DNA of 64,000 bases, taken from positions 1 through 64,000 of the forward strand of contig DAHUXD010000011.1 in assembly GCA_027307335.1 (NCBI GenBank). The letters are read 5' to 3'. The translations under genes were made by a program, and so were the position numbers. Each line of letters begins with the position of its first letter. The stretch's first letter is position 1. Positions 3 to 9,443 of the stretch are shown one piece after another. This DNA comes from Acidobacteriota bacterium. GTDB taxonomy: Bacteria > Acidobacteriota > Thermoanaerobaculia > UBA5066 > Gp7-AA6. A model generated the notes under the pieces. The model was not told where the DNA came from. It was given only the letters and a program-made list of their open reading frames with translations, and ran no database searches.

Positions 3-569
3 CCGGGAGACGCGGCCGCCGAGCGCGCCGACGTGGCGGCCGCGAAGGCCGCGGCCTCGGCCGCCGAGGAGTCCGGCCGGGCGGCCGCCGCCGCGCGCTG
101 GCCGAGCCTCGTCGTCACCGGCCGCTACGAGGTCCACGCGCCCACGATCGACGGCCGCTACGGAAACATGGCGACCGTCTTCGCCGGAGTGCGCGTGCCC
201 CTCTTTACGTCCGGCGCGATCGATGCCCGCGTGGCGGAGGCCCGGGCGACCGCCCGGGCGGCCGACTTCGCCGCGAAGGAGGCGGGCCGGACGGCGCAGA
301 GCGAGATCGTACGGGCGCGGGCCGGTCTCTCGGCCGCACTGGCGCAGAGCGCCGCGTTCCGGGAGGCGGAGAGCGCCGCCTCCGAGGCCCGCCGGATCCG
401 CCAGGCGCGCTACGACGAGGGCGCCGCGCGCTTGACCGACCTGCTCGACGCGCGCGGGTCGGAGCTTCGCGCCCGGCTCGGAGTCGCCACGGCCACCGCG
501 CAGGCCGTGATCGCCCACGCCAATCTGCGGCTGGCCCTCGGCCGGCCGCCCGAGGGAGACGAACGATGA
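3..569 (+). CDS. TolC-family outer-membrane efflux protein, C-terminal part (5' end outside window)
   Basis: The reading frame is already open at the left edge, so only about the last 188 residues are seen. The protein is Ala/Arg/Glu-rich, with long helices, a central beta-like stretch (VTGRYEVHAP) and a second helical repeat ending in LRLALGRPP. This is the alpha-barrel and porin-strand pattern of the second half of TolC/OEP proteins. Such proteins form the outer-membrane duct of tripartite efflux pumps, and the stop codon overlaps the ATG of the adaptor gene (ATGA), which fits that role. The GTG at 33 is an internal codon, not a credible start. The family call rests on pattern and context; substrate unknown. 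Confidence 0.8.
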   Translation, partial: PGDAAAERADVAAAKAAASAAEESGRAAAAARWPSLVVTGRYEVHAPTIDGRYGNMATVFAGVRVPLFTSGAIDARVAEARATARAADFAAKEAGRTAQSEIVRARAGLSAALAQSAAFREAESAASEARRIRQARYDEGAARLTDLLDARGSELRARLGVATATAQAVIAHANLRLALGRPPEGDER

Positions 570-1612
570 AACGGCCCCTGACCCTTCTCCTGCTTCTCGC
601 CGCCGCCGCCGGCTGTTCGAAGAAGGCCGCCGAGCGCCCGGCCGCCGAGTCGCGAAAGTTCTCGACCGCTACCGTCGAACGGCGCGACGAGGCCGGAGCC
701 GTCGAGGTGGACGGCACCGTCGTCGGCCGGACCGAGGCGGTGCTTTCGAGCCGCCTCGCCGCGCCGGTCGCCGAGGTCCGCGCGGTGCCGGGCCAGTCGG
801 TCCGCGCCGGGGAGGTGCTCGTGCGGCTCGAGGAGCACGAGGCCGATCGCGCGTTCGACGGCGCGAGGGCCGCGGTCGCCGCCGCCTCGAGCGCGCGGGA
901 CATCGCCCGGAAGAACCAGGGGCGGTTCGAGAGGCTCGAGGGCCGCGGGGCGGCCGCCGCCGTGGAACTCGAGAAGGCCCGGCAGGACGAGGCCTCCGCC
1001 ACCGCCGCGCTCGCCGCGGCCGAGGCCGCCCTCTCGAGGGCCGAGACCGATCGCGGCCAGGCCGTGCTGACCGCGCCGTTCGACGCCGTGGTCGTCGAGA
1101 AGATGGTTTCCCCGGGCGACCTGGCCGCGCCGGGACGGCCCCTCGTGCGCCTCGCGTCGGCGAAGGGGCGGCGCGTCGAGGCGGCGCCGGGTGAGCGCGA
1201 GGCCGGGCGGCTCTCGCCGGGCGAGGACGTGGTCGTCGTCCTCGACGGGAGGACGCTGACGGGGAAGATCGCCGAGATCGTCGGCGCGGTGGACCCCTCC
1301 ACGCGGCGCCGCATCGTGCGCGTGGACCTGCCCCCGGACGTCGAGCCGACCGTGGGAACGTTCGCCCGGCTGCGCCTGCCCGGAGAGAAGGTGCCGAGGC
1401 TGGTCGCTCCCTCCCGCGCGATCGTCGCGCGCGGGGGCCTCGAGCTCGCGTGGGCCGTGGGCGCCGACGGCGCCGTCGCCCTGCGCTACGTCCGGACCGG
1501 GCCGCCGGCCGGAGAAGGGCTCGTCGAGGTCCGCTCGGGTCTCGAGGCGGGGGATCGCGTCGTGCTCGATCCGCCCGCCGATCTCCAGGCGGGCACGCGG
1601 GTCGCGTCGTGA
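566..1612 (+). CDS. RND efflux periplasmic adaptor (membrane fusion) lipoprotein
   Basis: 348 residues. The N-terminus has a lipoprotein signal peptide with a Cys after a Leu/Ala-rich core (AAAAGCSKK). A biotinyl-lipoyl-like half follows (LAAPVAEVRAVPGQSVRAGE), then an alpha-helical hairpin around residues 95-160, the second lipoyl half (LTAPFDAVVVEKMVSPGD) and a beta-barrel region. This is the normal HlyD/AcrA-like order. The adaptor links the inner-membrane pump to the TolC-like duct. It overlaps the upstream gene by ATGA and the downstream pump gene by GTGA, so the three are almost certainly one translationally coupled operon. Confidence 0.9.
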   Translation: MKRPLTLLLLLAAAAGCSKKAAERPAAESRKFSTATVERRDEAGAVEVDGTVVGRTEAVLSSRLAAPVAEVRAVPGQSVRAGEVLVRLEEHEADRAFDGARAAVAAASSARDIARKNQGRFERLEGRGAAAAVELEKARQDEASATAALAAAEAALSRAETDRGQAVLTAPFDAVVVEKMVSPGDLAAPGRPLVRLASAKGRRVEAAPGEREAGRLSPGEDVVVVLDGRTLTGKIAEIVGAVDPSTRRRIVRVDLPPDVEPTVGTFARLRLPGEKVPRLVAPSRAIVARGGLELAWAVGADGAVALRYVRTGPPAGEGLVEVRSGLEAGDRVVLDPPADLQAGTRVAS

Positions 1613-4600
1613 CGATCGATCCGGGCAAGCGCCTCTCCCTCGAGCGGGAGCGCCTCGGCCTCGCCGGACGGCTGGCGGCGGCGTTCATCGACTCGAAGCT
1701 GACGCCGCTGATGGTGGTTTTCGCCCTCGCCCTCGGGGCGATGGCGATCGTCGTCACGCCGCGCGAGGAGGAGCCGCAGATCAAGGTCCCGATGATCGAC
1801 GTGTTCGTGGCTCTTCCGGGCCGCGAGCCCGTCGAGGTCGAGCGGCAGATCGCCGCGCCGCTCGAGAAGGAGATGTGGTCGATCCCGGGCGTCGAGTACG
1901 TCTACTCGACCTCCTCGCCGGGCCGGGCGATGCTGATCGTCCGCTTCCTCGTCGGCGAGGACCCGGACCGGGCGCTCGTCCGCGTCCGCGCCAAGCTCGA
2001 CGCAATGGCGGCGAGCTGGCCGGCGGACCTGCCGCCGCCGCTGGTGAAGGCCCGCTCGATCGACGACGTGCCGGTCTGGGCCATGACCTTCTGGAGCCCG
2101 ACCCGGGACCCGGCGACGCTCCGTCAGGTCGCGGCCGAGGTCGAGAACGAGATCAAGACCATCCCCGACGTGTCGGACACCGCCCTCATCGGGGGCCTCA
2201 AGCGCGAGTTCCGGGTCGAGCTCGATCCGGCGCTTCTCGCGGCCCGGGGCCTCTCGCCGAGCGCGGTCCTCGGGGCCCTTTCGGCCGCGAACCGGCGGAC
2301 GGCGGCCGGCGCGATCGTGTCCGGCGACCGCGAGGTCCGCGTCGAGGCCGGGGGCTTCGTCCGGAGCGCCGGGGAGCTCGGCGCGGTCGTGGTCGCGGAG
2401 ACCGCGGGCAAGCCCGTCCATCTCTCCGACGTCGCCCGCGTCGTGGACGGCCCCGAGGAGCCGTCCTCCTACGTGTCGCACTCCGAGCGCGGCGGCGCGG
2501 GGCCGTACACCGCGGTCACGCTCTCCGTCAGCAAGCGCCGCGGCGCCAACGCCATCTCGGTAGTCCACGCGATCGACCGCAAGCTCGAGGCCCTGCGGCC
2601 CCGGCTCATCGCCTCCGGCGTCCGCACGACGGTCAGCCGGGACTACGGCGAGACTTCGGCGGAGAAGTCGAACGATCTCCTCAAGCACATGGGCATCGCC
2701 ACGCTCTCGGTGGCGCTCCTGATGGCGATCGCGCTCGGCCGCCGCGAGGCGGGAGTCGTCCTCCTGGCCGTGCCCGTGACGCTCGCGCTGACGCTCTTCG
2801 TCTTCTCGCTCCTCGGCTACACGCTGAACCGGATCACCCTCTTCGCGCTCATCTTCTCGATCGGAATCCTCGTCGACGACGCGATCGTCGTCGTCGAGAA
2901 CATCGTCCGGCACCTCCGGATGCCGTCCTCTCGCGGCCGTTCGCTCGCCGCCGTCGCCATCGAGGCGACCGACGAGGTGGGCAACCCGACGATCCTCGCG
3001 ACCTTCGCCGTCATCGCGGCGATCGTGCCGATGGGCTTCGTCGGCGGCCTGATGGGGCCGTACATGCGGCCGATCCCGATCGGGGCGTCGGCGGCGATGC
3101 TCTTCTCGCTGCTCGTCGCGTTCGCGGTCTCGCCGTGGGCCTCCCGCCGGCTCTTCCGCGGCGTGTCGGCCGACAAGCACGGCCACGGGGAGGGAGAGCG
3201 CGGGAAGCTCGCGGTCCTCTACCGGAAGGCCATGACGCCGCTCGTCCGCGAGGACGGCGGCCGCGCCCGGGCGATCTTCTTCTCCGTCATCGGCCTGCTG
3301 CTCGCGGCGGCGATCGCGCTCGTGCCGCTCGGCGTCGTCGTCGTCAAGATGCTGCCCTTCGACAACAAGAACGAGTTCCAGGTCGTCGTGGACTTTCCCG
3401 AGGGCACGACGCTCGAGACGACCCACCGCGCGCTCACGGAGATGGCGGCCGCCCTGTCGGCCATTCCCGAGGTGACCGGCACCGAGGTGTACGCGGGCGC
3501 CTCCGCCCCGTACAACTTCAACGGCCTCGTGCGCCACTATTTCCTGAGGTCGGAGCCTTACCAGGGCGACGTCCAGGTCTCGCTGCTCCCGCGCAAGGAG
3601 CGGCGGCGCTCCTCCCACGCGATCGCGAAGGAAGCCCGGCCGCTCGTCGATGCGGTGGGGGACCGGTACGCCGCGCGCATCAAGGTGGCCGAGGTCCCGC
3701 CCGGGCCGCCGGTCCTCGAGACCCTCGTGGCCGAGGTGTACGGACCCGACGACGCGGGACGCCGGGAGGTCGCGCGCAAAGTCAAGGACGTCTTCGCGCG
3801 GACCGAGGGCGTCGTCGACGTGGACTGGTACGTGGAGAGTCCCCGCACGAAGGCCGTCTTCCGGCTCGACCGCGAGAAGGCGGGGCTCGCCGGCATCCGC
3901 GAGGCGGATGTCGCCGCGACGCTCCGTCTCGCGCTCGGGCGGGACGCGGCGGGCGAGATCCAGCTTCCCGACGTGCGCGAGCGCATTCCCCTCGTCGTGA
4001 CGCTGCCGGCCGAGCGGCGCAACGACCTCGCGGCGCTCTCCGGGCTGAAGGTCCCGGCCGCCGGCGGCCGCCTCGTGCCGCTCTCGGAGATCGGCCGGTT
4101 CGTCGAGGAGCCCGAGGCGACGTCGATCTACCACAAGAACTTAAAGCCGGTCGTCTACGTGACCGCCGACGTCGGCGGCCGGAAGGAGGCGCCGGTCTAC
4201 GCGATCGGGAAGCTCGAGAAGGGCATCGCGCAGATCGCGGTTCCCGGCGGCTACTCGATCGAGACGCGCACGGCGACGGCGCCCTTCGACACGGCGCGCT
4301 ACGGCATCAAGTGGGACGGCGAGTGGCACGTGACGTACGAGGTGTTCCGCGACCTCGGCCTCGCCTTCGCCGCCGTGCTCGTCCTGATCTACGTGCTCGT
4401 CGTCGGCTGGTTCCGCAGCTTCACGGTGCCGCTGGTGATCATGGCGCCGATCCCGCTGACGCTCGTCGGCATCCTGCCGGCGCACGGCCTGTTCGGCGTC
4501 TTCTTCACGGCGACGTCGATGATCGGCTTCATCGCCGGAGCGGGCATCATCGTCCGGAACTCGATCATCCTGGTCGACTTCATCGACCTGCGCCGCCGGC

Positions 4601-4878
4601 AGGGCATGGAGCTCTCCGAGGCGGTGCTCGACGCGGGCGAGGTCCGCTTCCGCCCGATGCTCCTGACCGCCGCGGCCGTCGTCGTCGGCTCGGCCGTCAT
4701 GCTGCTCGACCCGATCTTCCAGGGGCTCGCCGTCTCGATGATGGCCGGCGAGGTCGCCGCGACGCTGCTGTCGCGGGCGGCCGTGCCGGTTCTCTATTAC
4801 ATGCTCAAACGCTCGGAGGACAGGCGCGCGGCGACGGTCGCCGCGGCCCCCGCCGGGCACGAAAGGAGTCTCGCATGA
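1609..4878 (+). CDS. RND-family efflux pump, inner-membrane permease
   Basis: 1089 residues. The start is taken as GTG 1609, which overlaps the adaptor stop; the open frame continues upstream but only antisense to plausible coding. The product is a proton-driven exporter with two repeats of six membrane segments and two large periplasmic loops. The first membrane segment is near residues 25-45 and the IAAPLEKEM porter motif follows. Adjacent acidic residues D423-D424 in GILVDDAIVVVEN form the proton-relay signature of segment 4. A second permease half ends near residue 1075. The Asp pair is typical of hydrophobe/drug (HAE-like) pumps, whereas the downstream PII-like gene is more often seen with heavy-metal pumps, so the substrate is open. 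Confidence 0.93.
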   Translation: MTIDPGKRLSLERERLGLAGRLAAAFIDSKLTPLMVVFALALGAMAIVVTPREEEPQIKVPMIDVFVALPGREPVEVERQIAAPLEKEMWSIPGVEYVYSTSSPGRAMLIVRFLVGEDPDRALVRVRAKLDAMAASWPADLPPPLVKARSIDDVPVWAMTFWSPTRDPATLRQVAAEVENEIKTIPDVSDTALIGGLKREFRVELDPALLAARGLSPSAVLGALSAANRRTAAGAIVSGDREVRVEAGGFVRSAGELGAVVVAETAGKPVHLSDVARVVDGPEEPSSYVSHSERGGAGPYTAVTLSVSKRRGANAISVVHAIDRKLEALRPRLIASGVRTTVSRDYGETSAEKSNDLLKHMGIATLSVALLMAIALGRREAGVVLLAVPVTLALTLFVFSLLGYTLNRITLFALIFSIGILVDDAIVVVENIVRHLRMPSSRGRSLAAVAIEATDEVGNPTILATFAVIAAIVPMGFVGGLMGPYMRPIPIGASAAMLFSLLVAFAVSPWASRRLFRGVSADKHGHGEGERGKLAVLYRKAMTPLVREDGGRARAIFFSVIGLLLAAAIALVPLGVVVVKMLPFDNKNEFQVVVDFPEGTTLETTHRALTEMAAALSAIPEVTGTEVYAGASAPYNFNGLVRHYFLRSEPYQGDVQVSLLPRKERRRSSHAIAKEARPLVDAVGDRYAARIKVAEVPPGPPVLETLVAEVYGPDDAGRREVARKVKDVFARTEGVVDVDWYVESPRTKAVFRLDREKAGLAGIREADVAATLRLALGRDAAGEIQLPDVRERIPLVVTLPAERRNDLAALSGLKVPAAGGRLVPLSEIGRFVEEPEATSIYHKNLKPVVYVTADVGGRKEAPVYAIGKLEKGIAQIAVPGGYSIETRTATAPFDTARYGIKWDGEWHVTYEVFRDLGLAFAAVLVLIYVLVVGWFRSFTVPLVIMAPIPLTLVGILPAHGLFGVFFTATSMIGFIAGAGIIVRNSIILVDFIDLRRRQGMELSEAVLDAGEVRFRPMLLTAAAVVVGSAVMLLDPIFQGLAVSMMAGEVAATLLSRAAVPVLYYMLKRSEDRRAATVAAAPAGHERSLA

Positions 4879-5102
4879 GCTGTGAACCGACCGTTGACAC
4901 CTGGCTGCGCGGCATCGCGGGGACGTTCGTCCTCCTCTCGGTCGCGCTCGGCTGGTTCGTCCACCCCGGCTTCTTCCTCTTCACCGCGTTCGTGGGCCTG
5001 AACCTCCTGCAGTCGGCCTTCTCGGGCTGGTGCCCGATGATGGCGATCCTGCGCAAGCTCGGCGTGCGGGACGCGGGCGTCCCGGCGGCGTCGCGGTCGT
5101 GA
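4875..5102 (+). CDS. Small DUF2892-type membrane protein
   Basis: 75 residues, starting at an ATG that overlaps the pump's stop codon (ATGA), with AAAGGAG just upstream. Two hydrophobic stretches (about residues 14-29 and 32-48) flank a short turn, followed by SGWCPMMAILRKLGV. This matches DUF2892 proteins and the YgaP membrane tail, where a Cys near the second helix is conserved. The family usually accompanies rhodanese or metal/sulfur-stress genes; here it is placed between an RND pump and a PII-like protein. The role is unknown; it may modulate the pump. Confidence 0.8.
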   Translation: MSCEPTVDTWLRGIAGTFVLLSVALGWFVHPGFFLFTAFVGLNLLQSAFSGWCPMMAILRKLGVRDAGVPAASRS

Positions 5103-5389
5103 GGCTTCTCCTTCTCGTCGTGCCGCGGGAGGCGCGCGACGAGGTCGAGGCCATCCTCGAGTCGGCGGCGGGGACGCTCGGCTTCACGGAGGTGCCCGGC
5201 GTGTACGGGGCGGGCGCCTCCGGTCCCCGCTTCGGCTCGCGGACCGCGCCCGGCGTCTCGGACATCGTCTTCGCGGTCGTGCCCGAGGAGCGGCTGGCTC
5301 CGCTCCGGACGGCGCTCCAGGCCGTCGAGGCGAGGCTCGGCCGGCGCCTGCGCGCCTTCGTCCTGCCGGTCCAGGCCGCCTGGGAGTGA
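5099..5389 (+). CDS. PII-like small signalling protein of the RND operon
   Basis: 96 residues, beginning at GTG 5099, which overlaps the upstream TGA (GTGA). The fold pattern is beta-alpha-beta repeats: RLLLLVVPREARDEVEAIL, a Gly-rich loop region, then VSDIVFAVVPEERLAPLRTALQAVEAR and a last strand LRAFVLPV. This resembles PII/CutA-like ferredoxin folds, particularly the DUF3240-like proteins found at the end of heavy-metal RND operons. The classical PII T-loop with its uridylylated Tyr is not visible, so nitrogen sensing is unlikely. A regulatory or sensing role for the pump is inferred from position. Confidence 0.7.
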   Translation: MRLLLLVVPREARDEVEAILESAAGTLGFTEVPGVYGAGASGPRFGSRTAPGVSDIVFAVVPEERLAPLRTALQAVEARLGRRLRAFVLPVQAAWE

Positions 5390-5482: not shown

Positions 5483-7978
5483 ATGAAGACGCGCAGAATC
5501 CGTCGGGCGTGGATCCTGGCCGCGGCCGCCGCGGCCTTCGGCATGGGGGCGACGCCCCTCGCCACGGGATGGAAGGTCGTCGGCTGGAACGACCTCGGGA
5601 TGCACTGCATGGACGCGGACTATTCCGTATTCTCGATCCTGCCGCCGTTCAACAACCCGCACGCGCAGGTGCTCGATCCCTCGGGCAGCCTCGTGACGGA
5701 CCCGGTCGCCGCCGGCGTCCACGTCACCTACGAGGCGATCGCCGATCCCGCGGGCTCGATCAACACCACCTCCTCCGGCAAGACGAACTTCTGGGACCAC
5801 GTGCAGGCCCTGTTCGGCGCCGCGCCTCCGGTCGACACCGGCCTCGCGGGCAACGCGATGCCCGGTTCCGCGAACGTCCCGCAGTCGATGGCGTTCGATC
5901 CCGCGTTCTCCTGGTTCGTCGCGGCCGGCGTGCCGATCACGCCGTATGACGACGCGCAACGCAAAAACCCGTACCCGATGATGCGCGTCTCCGTGCGCGA
6001 CGCCGGGGGCGCCGTGCTCGCGAGCTCCGACGTCGTGCTGCCGGTCTCGGACGAGATGGACTGCCGCGCCTGCCATGCCTCGGGATCCGGCGACGCGGCG
6101 AAGCCCGCGGCCGGCTGGATCTTCGACTGCGACGGCGACCGCGACTACAAGTTGAACATCCTGCGCCTCCACGACGAGAAGCAGGCGGCCGATCCGGCCT
6201 ACGCCTCGGCCCTCGTGGCAGCCGGCTACGACGCCGCCGGTCTCTTCGCGACCTCGACGGGCGGAACGTCCGTTCTGTGCGCGCGCTGCCACGCCTCGAA
6301 CGCACTCCCCGGAACCGGCCTCGCCGGGATCGAGCCGCTCACCCAGGCGGTCCACGCGCATCACGCCCCGGTCGACGATCCGGTCACCGGCCTGACGCTC
6401 GACGACACGACGAACCGCTCCGCCTGCTACCGCTGCCACCCCGGATCCGAGACGCGCTGCCTGCGCGGGGCGATGGGCAACGCGGTCGCCGCCGACGGGA
6501 CGCTCGCGATCCAGTGTCAGGGCTGCCACGGCTCGATGAGCGTCGTCGGCGCGGGCACGCGGCAGGGCTGGTTCGAGGAGCCCGTCTGCCAGAGCTGCCA
6601 CACGGGCACGGCGACGCACAACAACGGGCAGATCCGGTACACGAACGCGTTCGACACGAACGGCCAGCCGCGGATCGCCGTGGACCAGACCTTCGCGACG
6701 AACCCTGACACGCCCGCCTCCGGCATCTCGCTCTTCCGGTTCTCGAAGGGACACGGGAGTCTCCAGTGCGAGGCGTGTCACGGCTCGACTCACGCGGAGT
6801 TCCCGAGCTCCCACGTCAACGACAACGTCCGGGCGGTCGCCTTCCAGGGCCATGCCGGAACGCTCGTCGAGTGCGTCGCCTGCCACGGGACGAGCCCTGT
6901 CACGATTAGCGGCGGTCCTCACGGAATGCACCCCGTCGGACAGCCCTGGGTGGACGCGCACCCCGACGTCTTCGACGGCGGCAACGCGACGACGGCCGAC
7001 TGCGCCGTCTGTCACGGTACCGACTTCCGCGGGACGGTCCTCTCGCGCGCCGCGGCGGACCGCACCCTGACGACGTCCTTCGGGACGAAGCAGCTCTGGC
7101 GGGGCTTCGCCGTCGGGTGCTACGACTGCCACGACGGGCCGTCGAGCGACAACCCCAACCCGAACCACGCGCCCGCGGCGTCGAACGGTGCGGTGGCCGC
7201 GGCGGCGTACGGGTCCGCGCCGGTTCCTCTCGTTGCATCCGACGCCGACGGCAACCCGCTGACGTACCGCGTCGTGTCGCAGCCGGCGAACGTCACCGTG
7301 GCGCTCTCCGGCAGTCAGGCGACGGTCTACCCGATGCCGGGATTCGTCGGCGACGACGCCTTCACGTTCGGCGCCGCGGACGGCGACACCTGGTCGAACC
7401 TCGCCACCGTCACGGTGGCGGTCGACGGCAGCTTCGCCGACGTGCCGCGCGCGGCGCTCTTCGCCTCGATGATCGAGCGGCTCTACCACTCCTCGATCAC
7501 GGCCGGTTGCGGCGTCTCCCCCCTCGTGTACTGCCCGGCCGCGTCGGTCACGCGGGCGCAGATGGCGGTCTTCCTGGAGCGCGGCATGCGCGGCGCGACC
7601 TTCGTGCCGCCACCGGCGTCGGGCGTCTTCGGCGACGTCCCGACGACCTCTCCCTTCGCGCCGTGGATCGAGCAGCTCGCCCACGACGGCGTGACGGCGG
7701 GGTGCGGCGGCGGCAACTTCTGCCCGCAGTCTCCGGTCACGCGGGCGCAGATGGCGGTGTTCCTGACGAAGGCGCGGCACCCGACGGCGTGCACCTATCC
7801 GGCGACGGGCGCGGTGTTCACCGACGTACCGTCGAGCTACTGGGCCGGCGGCTTCATCGAGCAGCTCTGGCACGAGGGCGTCACCGGCGGCTGCGGCGGG
7901 GGCCTCTTCTGCCCCGACACGGCCGTCACGCGCCAGCAGATGGCGGCCTTCCTCGTCCGGGGATTCCGACTGCCGTAG
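5483..7978 (+). CDS. Secreted multiheme c-type cytochrome with Ig-like and S-layer-homology-like domains
   Basis: 831 residues, signal peptide at 1-27, RBS GGGAGGGAG before the ATG. Nine CxxCH heme-binding motifs run from C194 (CRACH) to C546 (CYDCH): CRACH, CARCH, CYRCH, CQGCH, CQSCH, CEACH, CVACH, CAVCH, CYDCH. The first ~190 residues carry the GWNDLGMHCMDADYSVF block known from other large multiheme proteins. After the hemes comes a cadherin/Ig-like module (about 555-650, ending GDDAFTFGAADG), then three S-layer-homology-like repeats (FADVP...ITAGCG...VTRAQMAVFL). Inference: an exported electron-transfer protein anchored at the cell surface. Heme attachment would require Ccm machinery, not in this window. 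Confidence 0.9.
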   Translation: MKTRRIRRAWILAAAAAAFGMGATPLATGWKVVGWNDLGMHCMDADYSVFSILPPFNNPHAQVLDPSGSLVTDPVAAGVHVTYEAIADPAGSINTTSSGKTNFWDHVQALFGAAPPVDTGLAGNAMPGSANVPQSMAFDPAFSWFVAAGVPITPYDDAQRKNPYPMMRVSVRDAGGAVLASSDVVLPVSDEMDCRACHASGSGDAAKPAAGWIFDCDGDRDYKLNILRLHDEKQAADPAYASALVAAGYDAAGLFATSTGGTSVLCARCHASNALPGTGLAGIEPLTQAVHAHHAPVDDPVTGLTLDDTTNRSACYRCHPGSETRCLRGAMGNAVAADGTLAIQCQGCHGSMSVVGAGTRQGWFEEPVCQSCHTGTATHNNGQIRYTNAFDTNGQPRIAVDQTFATNPDTPASGISLFRFSKGHGSLQCEACHGSTHAEFPSSHVNDNVRAVAFQGHAGTLVECVACHGTSPVTISGGPHGMHPVGQPWVDAHPDVFDGGNATTADCAVCHGTDFRGTVLSRAAADRTLTTSFGTKQLWRGFAVGCYDCHDGPSSDNPNPNHAPAASNGAVAAAAYGSAPVPLVASDADGNPLTYRVVSQPANVTVALSGSQATVYPMPGFVGDDAFTFGAADGDTWSNLATVTVAVDGSFADVPRAALFASMIERLYHSSITAGCGVSPLVYCPAASVTRAQMAVFLERGMRGATFVPPPASGVFGDVPTTSPFAPWIEQLAHDGVTAGCGGGNFCPQSPVTRAQMAVFLTKARHPTACTYPATGAVFTDVPSSYWAGGFIEQLWHEGVTGGCGGGLFCPDTAVTRQQMAAFLVRGFRLP

Positions 7979-8030: not shown

Positions 8031-9443
8031 ATGACGGCACGCCCGCTTCCGCCGAAGGACTGTTTCGTCCGTCTCGCCGTCGCCCTCGCGCTCGCCGGCG
8101 GCGTCGGCTGTTCCCACCTCCCGTTGGTGAAAAGGGCGCAAGGGCCGGCGAACATCGCCGCGCAGGGGCGCGCGCCGCTCACGGTCTCGGAGCTCCAGTT
8201 CGAGAACCTGCGGTTCGCGGACAACTACTCGAACTCGGTCGCGCACGCCGCCGACCGCGTCTCGAAGGAGATCGGCTCTCGCGACGCGCAGGTCGAGGCG
8301 CTGAAGTGGAAGCTCGAGCAGGCGACCGCCGCGTACGTCGACGCGACCGGCCAGAATCCGCTCTGGAACGCGCTCGATCTCGTCGGCCTGGCCACGGTCT
8401 CGCGCATGGTCATCGAGGACGCGAAGTCGCGCGAGCTCTTCGGCGGCGACCTGGACGTCCTTCTCCAGACCCACCGCAGTCTGGAGACGACGGCGTGGAA
8501 CCTGGCCGATCAGTTCCTCGATCCTACCGAGCACAAGGAACTCGCCGATCTCTTCGACGAGTGGCGCCGGCAGAATCCGAACGAGCGGAGCGTGTCGGGC
8601 GTGCACTTCCGGGAGTTCGCGCTCACGCTCGGCAAGGGAAGCTCGCCCTCGACGGTCAAGGCGACGAGCATCTTCTCGCTCCTGTACCTCGACCCGTTCG
8701 CCGGCCTCGACCCGACCACCGTCGCGATCGAGCAGTCGCGCGAGCTCGCGGCGCGCACGGTCGCCTACGCCGAGCGCATGCCGACGCTCCTGCGCTGGCA
8801 GGCGGAGCTGCTCGCGCTGCAGGTCGCGCGGCAGCCCGATCCGCAGGAGCTCATGGCCGACGTCGACCGCGTCTCGCATTCCATCGAGAGCGTGTCGAAG
8901 ACCGTCGAAGGCGTGCCGGCGCTCGTCGACACCCAGCGCCGGGAGGCCATCGACCAGCTCTTCGCCGGCGTCACCGAGCAGCGGCAGGCGCTCCTCGCGG
9001 ACCTCGACGCGCGCGAGGGCAAGCTCCGGTCGCTCCTGGGCGAGACGAAGCAGACGCTCGACGCCGGCGCGCAGATGTCGGATTCCCTGAAGGGGACGAT
9101 CGGGGCGCTCGACGCCTTCGTGCACTACGTGTCGCCGCCGCCCGATCCGAAGGCGCCCCCGAAGCCCGCGGGAAAGCCCTTCGACCCGCTCGACTACGGC
9201 AAGGCGGCGAGCGAGGTCGGCGGCATGGCGCGGGACCTCTCGGCGCTGCTTTCCTCGGTGGACCGGACCGCGCCGCAGCTCGGCGTGCTGGGCGGGAAGA
9301 CCGCCGAAGAGCTGAAGGGCGTCGTCGACCGGGCGTTCTGGCGGGGAATCGTGCTGGTGCTGCTCTTCCTCGTGGGCGGCGTGTTCGCGGCGCTCGCTTA
9401 TCGGGCGCTCGCGCGGCGGCTCTTCACGAGGCCGGCCGCGTAG
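8031..9443 (+). CDS. Predicted lipoprotein with coiled coil and C-terminal membrane helix, function unknown
   Basis: 470 residues, good RBS (GAAGGAG) before ATG 8031. The signal sequence ends in LAGGVGCS, so C27 is a probable lipidated Cys. The middle is mostly helical, with heptad-like stretches (about 270-370, many Asp/Gln/Leu). A single strong membrane segment lies near 436-458 (IVLVLLFLVGGVFAALAY). A lipobox plus a C-terminal membrane helix is unusual. No catalytic motif seen and no family recognised. Its 3' end overlaps the convergent exonuclease gene by 20 nt. Confidence 0.75.
   Translation: MTARPLPPKDCFVRLAVALALAGGVGCSHLPLVKRAQGPANIAAQGRAPLTVSELQFENLRFADNYSNSVAHAADRVSKEIGSRDAQVEALKWKLEQATAAYVDATGQNPLWNALDLVGLATVSRMVIEDAKSRELFGGDLDVLLQTHRSLETTAWNLADQFLDPTEHKELADLFDEWRRQNPNERSVSGVHFREFALTLGKGSSPSTVKATSIFSLLYLDPFAGLDPTTVAIEQSRELAARTVAYAERMPTLLRWQAELLALQVARQPDPQELMADVDRVSHSIESVSKTVEGVPALVDTQRREAIDQLFAGVTEQRQALLADLDAREGKLRSLLGETKQTLDAGAQMSDSLKGTIGALDAFVHYVSPPPDPKAPPKPAGKPFDPLDYGKAASEVGGMARDLSALLSSVDRTAPQLGVLGGKTAEELKGVVDRAFWRGIVLVLLFLVGGVFAALAYRALARRLFTRPAA

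Follow-up and report, generated by a model that had tools for sequence, protein, structure and literature searches.

In the 64,000-nucleotide stretch of DNA analysed here (the window), which belongs to an uncultured diderm acidobacterium of the class Thermoanaerobaculia (genome G000; 4.37 Mb, 96.5% complete), an intact open reading frame with an ATG start occupies positions 5483-7978 of the forward strand and encodes a protein of 831 amino acids. The first-pass annotation had read it as a nine-heme CxxCH block followed by an Ig/cadherin-like module and three repeats resembling SLH domains, and all three parts were borne out. Nine CxxCH motifs are present (residues 194, 266, 315, 345, 369, 429, 464, 507 and 546), whereas shuffled versions of the protein contain 0.03 on average and one at most, which rules out a chance origin. 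Four Pfam families score above their cut-offs: SLH (62.4 bits, cut-off 20.8), Cytochrome_C7 (42.6 bits, cut-off 24.8), Big_9 (PF17963; 38.4 bits, cut-off 23.6) and Mtrc-MtrF_II-IV (PF22113; 34.6 bits, cut-off 30), the last of which covers part of the heme region only. Two of the SLH repeats pass the PF00395 cut-off singly, residues 650-825 are matched by the three-SLH stretch of NF033190 (E = 1.2e-12), and a phmmer search matched the SLH domains of B. anthracis Sap (6bt4 and 3pyw) to the tail with E-values of about 1e-5. Direct reading finds a TR motif in all three repeats, of which the first is the weakest, its recognition being based on the NF033190 stretch and on matches of the tail (residues 641-828) within the same genome. 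The features of the gene are as follows.

5483..5560, + strand: probable Sec signal peptide MKTRRIRRAWILAAAAAAFGMGATPL, residues 1-26, recognized by eye from a basic n-region and an Ala-rich h-region
5561..6052, + strand: heme-free, beta-rich N-terminal domain with the GWNDLGMHCMDADYSVF block, residues 27-190, from AlphaFold2 and the alignment
6053..7153, + strand: nine-heme domain, residues 191-557, from the nine CxxCH motifs and from Cytochrome_C7 and Mtrc-MtrF_II-IV above their Pfam cut-offs
6062, 6278, 6425, 6515, 6587, 6767, 6872, 7001 and 7118: nucleotide positions of the nine CxxCH motifs
7163..7417, + strand: cadherin/Ig-like module Big_9, residues 561-645, from PF17963 (38.4 bits) and a fold match
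7433..7591, + strand: SLH repeat 1, residues 651-703, Cys pair C676/C684, motif VTRAQ
7628..7756, + strand: SLH repeat 2, residues 716-758, Cys pair C741/C747, motif VTRAQ, PF00395 33.3 bits
7817..7945, + strand: SLH repeat 3, residues 779-821, Cys pair C804/C810, motif VTRQQ, PF00395 34.1 bits

Alignments with homologues begin only at about residue 28, after the putative signal peptide. The protein is best read as an exported c-type multiheme cytochrome, export being suggested by the signal-like N-terminus and by the other proteins that carry the same tail, and the host possesses genes for cytochrome c assembly (three PF01578 matches). A chimera of core and tail created by the assembly is unlikely, because the codon GC3 is uniform along the gene (0.92-0.96), Big_9 directly follows the core in all 10 of the homologue tails scanned, and Big_9 and SLH occur together in other proteins of the host genome (matches to residues 571-830).

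Upstream of the cytochrome, at 566-5389 on the same strand (+), the window contains RND efflux adaptor and permease genes followed by a gene for a transporter-associated small protein of the PG0541 family (39.1 bits, cut-off 45); these end 94 bp before the cytochrome and are possibly co-transcribed with it. The RND genes were rejected as operon partners, since, apart from a single fragment at 34%, they are not neighbours of the cytochrome in relatives. The gene at 8031-9443 (+), starting 53 bp after the cytochrome, encodes 470 amino acids; the N-terminus of the product resembles a lipobox (GGVGCSH), a hydrophobic segment lies in its C-terminal part, and it matched no family over cut-off. Porin-cytochrome or S-layer genes had been proposed as neighbours to be sought in relatives. 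In counts based on a gene finder that is a simple length and GC3 heuristic, the surroundings of the gene are not conserved among the homologues, outside Rhodocyclaceae no family of neighbouring genes is widely shared, and the surroundings lend no support to any pathway.

The nine-heme core family

Residues 28-557, approximately, form one conserved unit with 50-68% identity to homologues in Acidobacteriota, Planctomycetota, Verrucomicrobiota, Lentisphaerota, Myxococcota, Thermaceae and Betaproteobacteria (Thiobacillus, Rhodocyclaceae and Zoogloeaceae). No model in Pfam or NCBIfam covers the whole unit of about 530 residues, no plasmid-borne relatives were found, and, judged by sequence comparison, the family is an unnamed and highly conserved one found in several phyla. 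Across 36 aligned homologues from several phyla all nine CxxCH motifs are invariant, as are nine further His residues (H41, H230, H291, H294, H424, H437, H480, H483 and H493) and two extra Cys residues outside the heme motifs (C42 and C326). The GWNDLGMHCMDADYSVF block, which had been described as common to other multiheme proteins, is real and nearly invariant within the core family, with W35, N36, L38, G39, M40, H41, C42 and D44 invariant in the alignment.

The numbers of further invariant His residues and of CxxCH motifs are equal, giving one candidate distal ligand per heme, and every heme may therefore be bis-His ligated. This count of conserved His residues, as distinct from any heme geometry, suggests bis-His ligation throughout and suggests that the core serves electron transfer rather than catalysis. 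An enzyme would, however, fit conservation as strong as this (50-68% across phyla, with two extra Cys residues invariant), and a multiheme reductase or oxidase in place of a carrier has in its favour the high cross-phylum identity, the invariant C42 and C326, the invariant heme-free domain and the precedent of NrfA-type enzymes, which likewise join many bis-His hemes to one active site. We nevertheless think an enzyme rather unlikely, as the extra invariant His residues are as many as the hemes, so that none need stay open, and the NrfA, HAO and MccA families gave no match to the window protein at reporting thresholds. OcwA of Thermincola potens, a nine-heme protein of the cell surface, is by its fold a member of the NrfA/c554/octaheme family, with a distal water at its active-site hemes 2 and 5 (PMC6703420). 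The window core, with nine candidate distal His residues, would differ from it in this respect, and no OcwA chain was matched at E <= 1 in a PDB profile search. That search returned only marginal matches in the CxxCH region, the best of them (E = 0.0012) to a reaction-centre cytochrome.

The AlphaFold2 model of the core is fair (pLDDT 81.7, pTM 0.83), and the heme-free domain of residues 27-190 has pLDDT values mostly above 90 in two models; its matches to Ig-like folds are weak, with a best Z of 5.6, which is under the caution level of the tool. The modelled Big_9 module resembles cadherin EC domains (Z 9-10 over about 90 residues), in keeping with the earlier assignment. The SLH part of the full-length model is of low confidence because it was built without homologue rows covering that part. 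In the Foldseek/VIA-align comparisons the lists were filled by cadherin-like matches for the first model and by weak Ig-like matches for the core model, so that the heme domain was barely tested; known multiheme folds are absent from these lists filled by beta-domain matches. Like members of the MtrC/OmcA family, the window protein unites heme domains with beta domains in a single exported chain and partially matches PF22113; the MtrC/OmcA model TIGR03507 (NCBIfam) gave no match to it at E <= 1.

C-terminal tails as genome-wide tags

The host genome contains 75 PF00395 matches, as against 0-11 in 12 relatives, and dozens of secreted proteins, among them a reprolysin-type (M12-type) metalloprotease, a glucose/sorbosone dehydrogenase and beta-propellers, have the SLH repeats at their C-terminus or close to it. 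When the cytochrome was compared with the proteins of its own genome, all matches fell on the SLH/Big_9 end and none on the heme core. Nearly all of the 129 SLH repeat units profiled from this genome have the Cys pair and the TR motif, the R of which is over 90% conserved. The SLH tail is absent from all other core homologues (about 52 distinct ones). As far as these comparisons reach, the tail is the generic C-terminal tag of the host genome and is not special to the cytochrome.

A CsaB-like pyruvyltransferase fused to glycosyltransferase-like regions is encoded 5-14 kb from three SLH proteins, two of them of the reprolysin type by sequence similarity; this 1287-aa fusion (L103:14778-18641, + strand, contig C16 of G000) scores 167 bits, under the 213-bit cut-off of the CsaB equivalog model. 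SLH proteins also run in adjoining open reading frames on contig C21 (L104; about 90.3-93.3 kb), apart from the set of tails analysed here.

A tally of full cores, 54 distinct ones including a remote relative with 33% identity, shows diverse C-termini. In a quick tree of 52 rows, the deep support of which is mostly weak, the tail classes (of which 'ASVID', 'TP-rich' and 'PKD' are regular-expression labels) need 19 changes. Genome-wide counts were made for three tags, DGFE, Soli_cterm and SLH. Where the cytochrome ends in DGFE[ST]G, this motif occurs in 14-91 copies per genome (control, 0-1), whereas genomes in which the cytochrome is without it contain 0-2 copies. The short C-terminal tag DGFE[ST]G...W recurs in G048, G070, G078, G091, G107 and G122 (for example, at L058:3020-3085), being repeated in several Thermoanaerobaculia and nearly absent in others. 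The cytochrome of L062 carries TIGR03437 (Soli_cterm; 208.6 bits), of which its Acidobacteriia genome has 101 copies; a counter-example is L094 of Solibacteraceae, with 65 Soli_cterm domains in the genome, in which the cytochrome stops after Big_9 and bears no tag. Soli_cterm is a family separate from SLH, and resembles the host tail in being a paralogous C-terminal tag shared by dozens of proteins that are otherwise unrelated. Passenger-type, PKD or BACON modules are carried by some homologues, and those of Verrucomicrobiota and Lentisphaerota have passenger-type repeats or BACON modules at the position of the tail.

Of the tags found on the cytochrome and its homologues, three (SLH, DGFExG and Soli_cterm) are each the abundant tag of the genome using them. 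What is conserved is the nine-heme core together with Big_9, and the tail changes from lineage to lineage. On the simplest reading, the core would be portable, and the tail would serve each lineage as its own tag for anchoring or sorting. It is quite possible, if short of probable, that the core and beta domain constitute an undescribed and widely transferred electron-transfer family, the place of which in the envelope is set by the C-terminal tag of the host lineage (SLH, DGFExG, Soli_cterm and perhaps others). In that case, the Cys-pair SLH triplets of Acidobacteriota would serve generally for sorting to the surface or the wall and would match the DGFExG and Soli_cterm tails in role. One conserved nine-heme unit borne on at least three unrelated genome-wide C-terminal tags amounts to a natural experiment, and, if the tags are equivalent anchors, the cytochrome would be a heme-stainable reporter for SLH, DGFExG and Soli_cterm tails in uncultured Acidobacteriota.

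Place in the envelope and possible role

Most multiheme cytochromes outside Geobacter and Shewanella are without an assigned place in the cell. For the window protein, the explanation that we favour, and hold to be fairly probable, is that it is exported, transfers electrons and is held at the envelope by an anchor that differs from lineage to lineage. The heme-free beta domain and the nine-heme domain would act as a single unit of about 530 residues that carries electrons, and the cadherin-like spacer would join this unit to the three-repeat SLH tail, which may attach the protein to a glycan of the envelope; modified peptidoglycan or a pyruvylated polymer is the probable ligand. The tag would set the position and the core the function, other lineages putting other tags on the same heme unit. 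The most likely task of the protein is to pass on electrons at the envelope, perhaps between an MtrCAB-like conduit, for which genes lie elsewhere in the genome, and outside acceptors. The domain architecture, its conservation, the exchange of tails and the presence of the conduit genes are observed directly; the bis-His ligation, the export, the ligand of the SLH repeats, the electron-relay role and the partner are all read from sequence and are to be taken as predictions.

The first-pass annotation placed a heme wire directly on the cell wall or surface layer; the envelope anchor stands as the best reading, but the surface layer does not follow, since SLH domains of diderms can be periplasmic. 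In diderm Terrabacteria their ligands, reached from the periplasmic side, are pyruvylated polymers or polyaminated peptidoglycan, and OmpM, which has an N-terminal SLH domain and a C-terminal barrel, is reported to be absent from Gracilicutes (PMC10628300). Like OmpM and the triplets of the Sap/SpaA type, the window protein has three SLH repeats with a TR motif; unlike OmpM, it carries them at the C-terminus of a soluble cytochrome, without a barrel domain, and each differs from those of OmpM, Sap and SpaA in having a conserved Cys pair of the CGGGxxC type. Because the peptidoglycan to which diderm SLH domains can attach lies below the outer membrane, the SLH tail alone does not place the hemes outside. 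A periplasmic carrier tethered to peptidoglycan, with the SLH repeats binding the wall below the outer membrane, is an alternative that we rate as rather unlikely, and equally so the role that would go with it, in which the hemes link inner-membrane cytochromes to an outer-membrane conduit or to a periplasmic reductase. It is consistent with the known SLH ligands of diderms, which are wall-linked and periplasmic (PMC10628300), with the presence of the CsaB relative, and with the fusions of inner-membrane multiheme and cytochrome b parts on contig C19. However, the adhesion- or autotransporter-type repeats on homologues suggest that the core acts beyond the outer membrane in some lineages at least.

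The statement that no partner oxidoreductase or porin gene lies in the window proved right for the window, and a cluster of MtrC, MtrA and porin types was found on contig C19 (about 12.5-31 kb; L122:1824-6966 and L121:7468-19296, both - strand). The genes of this multiheme cluster are all on one strand and encode an MtrC/OmcA homologue (TIGR03507; 505 bits, cut-off 209), an adjoining decaheme protein of the DmsE/MtrA type (184 bits, just under the cut-off of 192), a porin candidate of 651 residues with a Porin_4 match above cut-off, proteins of 19 and 12 hemes with cytochrome b-like parts, a NapC-like protein, a nine-heme region and Rieske/cytochrome b. By its predicted gene content the cluster looks like a locus for extracellular electron transfer. 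MtrC was found over cut-off in 11 of the 21 core-bearing genomes of the class as against 27 of the 128 others (odds ratio 4.1, p = 0.005, kinship ignored), and the 10 core-bearing genomes without it indicate that the core is not a fixed partner of MtrCAB. Extracellular electron transfer, as proposed earlier, is plausible for the window protein in so far as it is compatible with the MtrCAB-like cluster, whereas the occurrence of MtrC in only about half of the core-bearing genomes tells against it.

The same evidence bears on the view that the protein is a surface-exposed heme wire on an S-layer, dedicated to extracellular electron transfer, a Gram-negative counterpart of OcwA or of the S-layer cytochromes of ANME archaea. 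The MtrCAB-like genes, the enrichment for MtrC and the passenger-type, PKD and BACON modules of some homologues, which are typical of exposed proteins, all argue for such a wire. We find it somewhat doubtful, however, given that this organism has no sign of an S-layer, that diderm SLH domains can act in the periplasm, that half of the core-bearing genomes are without MtrC over cut-off, and that the SLH tail, as a generic one, has no particular link with electron transfer. A search for the term found no mention of an S-layer in the text on OcwA (PMC6703420). MHC-A and MHC-B of ANME contain DUF1608, the Methanosarcina-type S-layer domain of archaea; a heme lies within their linker, and transmembrane helices are found at the C-terminus (PMC9012536). 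The window protein resembles them in combining a multiheme cytochrome and an envelope-associated domain on one chain; unlike them, it has bacterial SLH repeats and ends in these, and DUF1608 gave no Pfam match to it at E <= 1. Of the known systems, OcwA and these ANME proteins come nearest, and neither proved a match to the family in the comparisons made here. In the literature searched, mostly without subscription journals, papers on ANME and Carboxydocella were found and no SLH-fused bacterial multiheme cytochrome. If the tags are equivalent anchors, Gram-negative bacteria would also have a means, independent of porins, of keeping a chain of hemes at the wall.

Another possible redox protein on the same anchor is encoded at L108:2331-4382 (+ strand); its SLH repeats lie in the middle of the protein, as an exception to the C-terminal rule, and its C-terminus is a plastocyanin/azurin-like domain.
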